Shown one piece after another: positions 21,539 to 34,224 of a DNA stretch of 34,224 nt. Numbering within the stretch: position 1 is the stretch's first letter; each line of letters starts with the position of its first letter. Where the stretch lies: positions 1 through 34,224 of the forward strand of contig JAQWEK010000006.1 in NCBI GenBank assembly GCA_028704975.1. Reading direction: 5' to 3'. The translations under genes were made by a program, and so were the position numbers. The notes under the pieces are model-generated. The model did not search any database. It was not told the DNA's origin and saw nothing but the letters and a program-made list of their open reading frames with translations. This DNA is from Bacteroidales bacterium. Its GTDB lineage: Bacteria; Bacteroidota; Bacteroidia; Bacteroidales; UBA932.

Positions 21539-22372
21539 TTAAATTATTGATTCTGCAAAACTTCTCATCCTCTCCGCATCCGGCTTTCTACCGGTAAAAA
21601 GCTCAAATCCGGGTATAGCTTGGTTGACCAGCCATTCCAGCCCGCCTATGTAATTTGGAGCGCTTGGAAATGACGGGTTTTTATAGTTTGCCTCAATTAG
21701 TAAAACTCCCGACAGGTCGCTCTTTTTTAATTCTTCTACTGTCAGCGGCAGCGCATATACCACAACGGAAACGCGTTTAACAATATCCGCCGCCTCATTC
21801 AGACCGGCAAATTCAGCTCCGATTTTTGTCGCAAATTCTTTTGCCTTATCTATGCTTCTGTTTGCTATAAAGACCTCAAATCCAGAATCTTTTAGTGCAA
21901 GGGCGGCTGCTTTCCCTGCACCGGCACAACCAACGCACAAGGCTGCCCGCATATTTTGCGGCTCAGTACCTCGCCGCAAAATTTTGTGGTTTAACGCGCT
22001 TTGCGCGGAGATGCACGCTCCCTCCGGGAGCGGCCTGCGGCTTAATAAATATTTATTAATAATTCTTCTCACCGCCCAATAATCGGTGTTGTAGGAATAG
22101 ACTTCGCTTGCCTTGAATATTAGGGTGTTGGCGGCACATAACTTTGAGGTTACGGTGTCCGGTCGCGTGACGTATTGCATCACGGATTCTTTGAAAGGTG
22201 CCGTGACATTTATGCCGCTGTATCCGCCGTCGTGAACTTTTTGCATTGCCTCTTCTACGCTCTGGGCTTCAATGAGTTCGTATTCGTCTGTATTTTCGCG
22301 GTAGGCTCTTTTGAACAAGGCCGGGCTTAAAGAGTGTTTTATCGGATTTCCTATGAGGGCGAATTTTGCCAT
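21539..22372 (-). CDS. aroE: Shikimate dehydrogenase with an apparent interdomain insertion
   Basis: 277 aa; GNPIKHSLSPALF, GINVTAPFKE, NTDYWAVRRI, NADP-site-like VGCAGAGKAAALAL. Extra segment SRRPLPEGACISAQSALNHKILRRGTEPQN lies before the Rossmann motif. Confidence 0.92.
   Translation of the reverse strand: MAKFALIGNPIKHSLSPALFKRAYRENTDEYELIEAQSVEEAMQKVHDGGYSGINVTAPFKESVMQYVTRPDTVTSKLCAANTLIFKASEVYSYNTDYWAVRRIINKYLLSRRPLPEGACISAQSALNHKILRRGTEPQNMRAALCVGCAGAGKAAALALKDSGFEVFIANRSIDKAKEFATKIGAEFAGLNEAADIVKRVSVVVYALPLTVEELKKSDLSGVLLIEANYKNPSFPSAPNYIGGLEWLVNQAIPGFELFTGRKPDAERMRSFAESII
21947..22059. repeat. Cluster of perfect inverted repeats inside the aroE frame (putative palindromic element)
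   Basis: ccgca-tattt-tgcgg (21947-21961); attttgcggc-N10-gccgcaaaat (21953-21982); cgcgc-ttt-gcgcg (21995-22007); gctccc-tcc-gggagc (22017-22031); ttaataaatatttattaa (22042-22059). Confidence 0.7.
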
Positions 22373-33457: not shown

Positions 33458-34224
33458 ATGGAAAAAGAATTTAGACCAAGGCGCTCTGACTCAAAGAGTA
33501 CAGGACGCAGCTACGGACACAGAAATTTCTCAGCCGGGGAAGGCTCAGGACGTCCGCAAAGAAGAAGTTTTCATCACGACAGAGATGACAAAGGTGAAAG
33601 CTCAGAAGACAGACCGCGCAGAAGTTTTGGAGGCTCACGTGACGGAGGAGATAGACCGCGCAGAAGTTTTGGAGGCTCACGCGACGGAGGAGATAGACCG
33701 CGCAGAAGTTTTGGAGGCTCGCATGACAGAAAATTTGGAGAGAGAAAATTTGATGTAAGGAAAAAAATTGAGGGTGCAGCAGAAGGAGAAGGAGGAGATG
33801 TAAAAGAGCGCACGCCAAGAACATACAGTCATTCAAGAAGTTTTGGCGACAGACCGCGTAGAAGTTTTGGAGGCTCACGTGACGGAGGTGACAGACCGCG
33901 CAGAAGCTTTGGAGGCTCACGTGACGGAGGTGACAGACCGCACAGAAGCTTTGGAGGCTCACGTGACGGAGGTGACAGACCGCGCAGAAGTTTTGGAGGC
34001 TCACGTGACGAAGGCGACAGACCGCGCAGAAGCTTTGGAGGCTCACGCGACGGAGGTGACAGACCGCACAGAAGTTTTGGAGGCTCACGCGATGGAGGCG
34101 ACAGATCGCGCAGAAGTTTTGGAGGCTCACGCGACGGAGGTGACAGACCGCACAGAAGATTTGGAGGCTCACGCGACGGAGGAGACAGACCGCGCAGAAG
34201 TTTTGGGGGCTCCCGCGACGGAGG
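33458..34224 (+). CDS. Arg/Gly-rich repeat protein N-terminus, probably an RsuA/RluB-type pseudouridine synthase (truncated by window edge)
   Basis: ATG at 33458: MEKEFRPRRSDSKSTGRSYGHRNFSAGEGSGRPQRRSFHHDRDDKGESSEDRPRRSFGGSRDGGD...; open to the end of the window, so absent from the ORF track. Product is inferred only from similar low-complexity N-termini on Bacteroidetes RluB-like proteins; the catalytic domain is out of view. Confidence 0.55.
   Translation, partial: MEKEFRPRRSDSKSTGRSYGHRNFSAGEGSGRPQRRSFHHDRDDKGESSEDRPRRSFGGSRDGGDRPRRSFGGSRDGGDRPRRSFGGSHDRKFGERKFDVRKKIEGAAEGEGGDVKERTPRTYSHSRSFGDRPRRSFGGSRDGGDRPRRSFGGSRDGGDRPHRSFGGSRDGGDRPRRSFGGSRDEGDRPRRSFGGSRDGGDRPHRSFGGSRDGGDRSRRSFGGSRDGGDRPHRRFGGSRDGGDRPRRSFGGSRDG
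33611..33736 (+). repeat. 42-bp tandem repeat, block 1 (2 full units plus 1 degenerate)
   Basis: Units start at 33611, 33653 and 33695; encode RPRRSFGGSRDGGD twice, then RPRRSFGGSHDRKF. Confidence 0.95.
33851..34224 (+). repeat. 42-bp tandem repeat, block 2 (8 full units plus a ninth cut by the window edge)
   Basis: Units start every 42 bp from 33851 to 34187; consensus RPRRSFGGSRDGGD with variants RPH, RSR, RRF and DEGD. Confidence 0.97.

Follow-up and report, generated by a model that had tools for sequence, protein, structure and literature searches.

Protein-coding palindromic repeats have previously been treated as a peculiarity of Rickettsia and Wolbachia. The Rickettsia palindromic elements (RPE) and the Wolbachia repeats are hairpin-forming sequences of about 105-150 bp (105-146 bp in the case of RPE), located between genes and in frame in conserved genes (PMC2229807, PMC10969869). 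The host proteins are apparently functional, and one host enzyme was shown to be active (PMC2229807, PMC10969869). In R. conorii, nearly half of the RPE copies are genic (PMC10969869). REPs inside genes are on record from several groups, and REPs/BIMEs go with RAYT (REP-associated tyrosine transposase) transposases (PMC3733652). ERIC/RU-1 and Correia/NEMIS are MITEs with in-frame fusions (PMC2229807). The Bacteroidales repeat examined here is a separate case.

The insert in aroE

The window (the whole 34,224-nucleotide stretch analysed, contig JAQWEK010000006.1) carries aroE, a core gene of amino-acid biosynthesis that encodes a shikimate dehydrogenase of 277 aa (coordinates 21539 to 22372, minus strand; Pfam Shikimate_dh_N, 1.3e-17; Shikimate_DH, 6.4e-07; SDH_C, 1.8e-07). 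Residues 111-140 form an extra segment, SRRPLPEGACISAQSALNHKILRRGTEPQN, which follows the substrate domain (Pfam 6-84) and precedes the Rossmann domain (141-208). When AroE was aligned with structure 2hk7, query residue 101 corresponded to chain residue 110 and query residue 142 to chain residue 124, indicating that the query has ~27 residues more at the interdomain site. The insert of about 30 residues between the two domains that was proposed in the initial annotation is confirmed by both the Pfam domains and the structural alignment. The insert is predicted to add a loop between these two domains; a single-sequence AlphaFold model of AroE had a mean pLDDT of 41 and was left unused.

The AroE linker varies in length across the genus, which would be expected if the segment were ordinary ancestral linker variation with no mobile element involved. 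However, this explanation is refuted by the occurrence of the same structured sequence ~80 times in a sister genome, and by the linker being shorter at the same place in ~27 genus relatives, whose proteins are mostly 234-276 aa. The initial annotation had named an ancestral linker and the lack of a second copy as findings that would speak against an inserted element, and had suggested a search for empty sites among aroE orthologues. The ~27 relatives with a short linker provide such sites, and further copies were found both in the genome containing the window (G000) and in its nearest relative (G034).

A run of palindromes is located inside aroE at 21953 to 22059 (minus strand of the window). 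The 89 bp core of the repeat, comprising hairpins A-D (21953 to 22041, minus strand), was matched by covariance model R1 with 60.8 bits (E 6.7e-9 in its own genome). In the direction of the minus strand, hairpin A is GCC-GCA-GGC (22033 to 22041; alignments A3/A4). The sequence together with the copy alignment defines hairpin B as CGCTCCC-GGA-GGGAGCG with a 7 bp stem (22016 to 22032) and hairpin C as CGCGC-AAA-GCGCG with a 5 bp stem and a 3-nt loop (21995 to 22007). These are followed by the linker TTAAACCACAAA (21983 to 21994), which is conserved across copies, and by hairpin D, ATTTTGCGGC-(10 nt)-GCCGCAAAAT, with a 10 bp stem and the loop GAGGTACTGA (21953 to 21982; sequence and copy comparison). 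The 5-bp stem, the 10-bp stem with its 10-nt loop and the 18-bp palindrome of the initial annotation are all present, but the stem given there as 6 bp is 7 bp long.

The 18-bp perfect AT palindrome, TTAATAAATATTTATTAA (22042 to 22059), had also been counted as part of the element. In the flank table of copies it occupies the position of the 5' leader (TGATAAYAA) seen in other copies, and this AT-rich sequence appears to be a flank or leader outside the conserved core, with its membership in the element uncertain. On the other side, a 3' tail, ATGCGGGCAGCCTTGTGCGTTGG (21930 to 21952, minus strand), resembles the tail of a G034 copy in a ComEA-like gene (82% identity match, query 33-131) and is possibly an extension of the element.

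Tandem repeats of 42 bp are present at the end of the window (33607 to 33727 and 33848 to 34224), the larger array having ~9 copies with 91% matches. Open frames run through them on either strand, encoding e.g. SLQNFCAVCHLRRV repeats.

Distribution and fold of the repeat family

Covariance model R1 was built from 11 copies in G034, a complete genome of one 2.23 Mb contig, with none taken from G000, an assembly of 173 contigs that is 86% complete. Matches to the LysRS of G000 came only from uncultured Bacteroidales relatives, at ~70-73%, and many of these were from herbivore gut. The model found ~80 matches in G034 and 7-9 in G000, a ~10-fold difference in detected copy number. Several of the G000 copies are near contig ends, so the number of copies in G000 is probably underestimated. 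In a DNA search, second matches in G000 were weak, and ~40 were found in G034. Three or four copies are clustered within 2-4 kb at each of three G034 loci (L161, L150 and L192).

With the covariance model, 35 of the 37 remaining genus genomes had no copy, and neither did any of the 294 genomes from the rest of the order. Three matches in total in G003 and G026 were rejected as members of the same family, being weak, partial and near contig ends. The element had no match at E<=1 among the Rfam covariance models, and the repeat was not found by a pattern scan of IMG/VR or by blastn of plasmids and phages. Literature searches likewise found no counterpart in the Bacteroidales or elsewhere in the phylum, in agreement with the initial annotation, within a literature made up mainly of open-access papers.

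It is likely that the segment in aroE is one member of a family of non-autonomous, mobile palindromic repeats (MITE/REP/RPE-like) which, as far as found, occurs in just two species within a single uncultured genus of Bacteroidales; we infer the mobility of the family. The proposal of an in-frame, RPE-like palindromic element is sustained by the dispersal of the repeat, its in-frame copies and the empty sites in relatives.

The family core consists of hairpin A (either GGCCGNAGGCC or an extended version), hairpin B of 7 bp, hairpin C, the linker around TTAAACCACAAA and hairpin D of 10-11 bp, in which the loop is GCTTTGT in most copies. Many copies have an additional 5' leader, TGATAAYAAGGC, and a 3' hairpin, e.g. 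TCTGCATGC..GCATGCA. In most copies of alignment A4, the conserved linker contains CCACAAA, the reverse complement of TTTGTGG at the D loop, and copies with variant linkers retain the same D loop.

The folding energy of the window element was -46.5 kcal/mol, compared with -35.3 +/- 3.4 kcal/mol for 200 dinucleotide shuffles, none of which was as good (z = -3.3). Among 88 copies, changes on both sides were seen in 26 of 26 pairs with linker and loop staying fixed, and 91.8% of cells were paired against 66.8% when shuffled and 21-51% in slid controls, in an alignment that leans to structure because it was fitted to the covariance model, and with cells that are not independent events. The MAFFT alignment A3 was concordant, with double changes in 10 of 11 hairpin D pairs. 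The arms of hairpin D occur in ~40 distinct forms among the 88 copies, mostly with 0 or 1 mismatch to the 3' arm, around a near-constant loop. G-T wobbles make up ~1% in hairpins B and C and 2.6% in hairpin D, nearly all of the latter at the loop-closing pair, and are commoner in the short hairpin A. Their scarcity in hairpins B-D suggests that DNA palindromes are a better fit than RNA, and the covariation of the stems is suggestive of selection or correction at the level of DNA hairpins. A speculative and rather doubtful explanation for stems that have diversified yet remain self-complementary, beside fixed loops and linkers, is that hairpin arms may be corrected against each other as templates during replication or transposition, combined with repeated entry into the same tolerant protein linkers.

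Intergenic and genic copies

Nearly all G034 copies are intergenic. The nearest gene end is a 3' end for 46 of 62 such copies, and divergent spacers hold 6 of 62, compared with 19 of 137 among all neighbouring pairs. Copies lie on either strand with respect to the nearest gene, 38 of 62 being on the same strand. The 3'-end bias, the strong covariation and the T-tracts adjoining hairpin A in some copies could together indicate a structured RNA element, either a regulatory RNA or a terminator, that has been duplicated and whose genic copies are incidental. However, this is improbable, as Rfam has no match to the element, G-T pairs are nearly absent though RNA would permit G-U, and the orientation is mixed.

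Six in-frame genic copies, on both strands and in several frames, were found across four conserved genes (aroE, a ComEA-like gene, ispH and folC). In G034, these are in aroE (antisense), a ComEA-like helix-hairpin-helix gene (sense) and folC (sense), and a truncated copy is located at the C-terminus of a 627-aa Big_2 protein. In G000, they are in aroE (sense), the ComEA-like orthologue (antisense) and ispH (antisense, a short copy). The frame is kept and stops are absent in all six, though genic copies were recognised by their open frame and open-frame statistics on them are therefore biased. Outside the inserts, the host genes have dN/dS values of 0.06-0.16, indicating purifying selection. 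The inserts are probably translated as tolerated linkers.

An alternative is that the insert is removed or skipped, by RNA splicing or translational bypassing, leaving an ordinary protein, and the stable RNA-level fold of the element would suit such a process. This is highly unlikely, given that no intron or bypass signature was seen and that an open frame would be unneeded in a removable insert, an argument weakened by the way in which the genic copies were recognised.

The intergenic copies had a mean of 1.24 of 3 open forward frames versus 1.43 when shuffled (reverse, 1.94 versus 1.40). Forward open frames are not enriched, suggesting tolerance of the repeat within genes and no adaptation to coding. 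The earlier description of a coding-compatible repeat fits the in-frame genic copies, but most copies of the family are intergenic. ORFs of 80-200 aa across intergenic copies were rejected as genes because they are mechanical. A screen for split genes around G034 copies found none, though genes destroyed long ago could escape detection. Two candidates were found to be separate neighbours, namely a Fic gene and an unnamed ORF at L186 and Hsp90 and LigB/AMMECR1 genes at L188.

The folC site is filled in G034 and empty in G000. The IspH linker is filled in G000 and short in most relatives; at this position the G034 protein carries another, different insert, thus this linker also varies for other reasons. 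The ComEA-like copies are in a linker that is variable among all relatives. A second in-frame insert is present near residue 42 of ispH (L292 in G000, L293 in G034), SPRRNTSSERSTVAGGNKSCPDVRDTAH in G000 and different in G034. It is absent from most genus members, and the repeat model gave no significant match to it.

The aroE copies of G000 and G034 share 68% identity with each other and 86% with their best match elsewhere, and the ComEA-like copies share 59% and 77%, respectively. In both of these shared genes, the copies are in opposite orientations in the two species. Their orientation and their greater likeness to other copies favour independent insertions into the same tolerant linkers over one ancestral insertion, though inversion in place plus divergence is possible. 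Because the two sister species allow filled sites to be set against empty ones, the family offers a way to test how core enzymes gain segments from selfish DNA, where such insertions are tolerated and what moves the repeats.

Candidate mobiliser and comparison with known systems

Under the preferred explanation of a non-autonomous mobile family, the repeat would spread as DNA, with hairpins of single-stranded or extruded DNA as the likely recognition feature and a Y1/HUH transposase perhaps acting on them in trans. Most genic insertions would be purged, and the survivors would be copies in a linker or disordered loop that have a frame-keeping length and an open frame in that orientation, and that would be translated as ~25-40 extra residues.

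A more specific form of this explanation names the mobiliser, making the repeat a REP/REPIN-type element that is moved by a RAYT and whose genic copies are rare accidents. Y1_Tnp genes were found in all seven genomes tested, with seven in G034, and each of five G034 genes tested matched the REP-associated tyrosine transposase model NF047646, below its cut-off. The hairpins with DNA-like pairing, the 3'-end preference and the low occupancy of divergent spacers are also consistent with this assignment. However, the repeat directly flanks none of the seven Y1 genes of G034; two copies lie ~0.9 kb from such genes, and one of these copies is weak. Y1 genes are also present in genomes where the repeat is absent (G002, G020 and G032) or only weakly matched (G003 and G026), and at 89 bp or more the element is far above the 20-40 bp of REPs. 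Mobilisation by a RAYT is possible but less likely than not. One Y1 transposase gene (L288:2056-3159) encodes a low-complexity KSEMEKSEM repeat and has a 26-bp inverted repeat, GTTCCCTCGGAACTTTTTACAT, upstream.

As with MITEs, the repeats are small (~100-200 bp) and non-autonomous, form stable hairpins and include in-frame copies within genes. However, no terminal inverted repeats or target-site duplication were identified, and the flanks of 78 copies inspected by eye had variable ends and shared neither. Like REPs/BIMEs, the repeats are palindromic, present in many copies and mainly at gene 3' ends, with intragenic cases and with Y1 transposases in the genome. Unlike REPs, which have a single hairpin, they have four or more, and they do not adjoin RAYT genes. 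The conserved terminal tetranucleotide tag of REPs is also absent; some copies contain GTAG, but its position is confined to the loop of either hairpin B or hairpin C.

The RPE and Wolbachia repeats are resembled in that this is a dispersed hairpin repeat, with an 89 bp core that is longer with leader and tail, inserted in frame in the unrelated conserved genes aroE, ispH and folC at sites that are empty in relatives. It differs from RPE in belonging to another phylum, in entering genes on either strand with no fixed frame, in its multi-hairpin structure with fixed loop and linker and variable stems, and in the small genic share in G034 (three plus one truncated of ~80). As the family is, as far as found, limited to two species, it was not filed as RPE; it works like RPE but would be a separate family. 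The family is previously unrecognised, in-frame palindromic repeats having so far been known chiefly from Rickettsia and Wolbachia.
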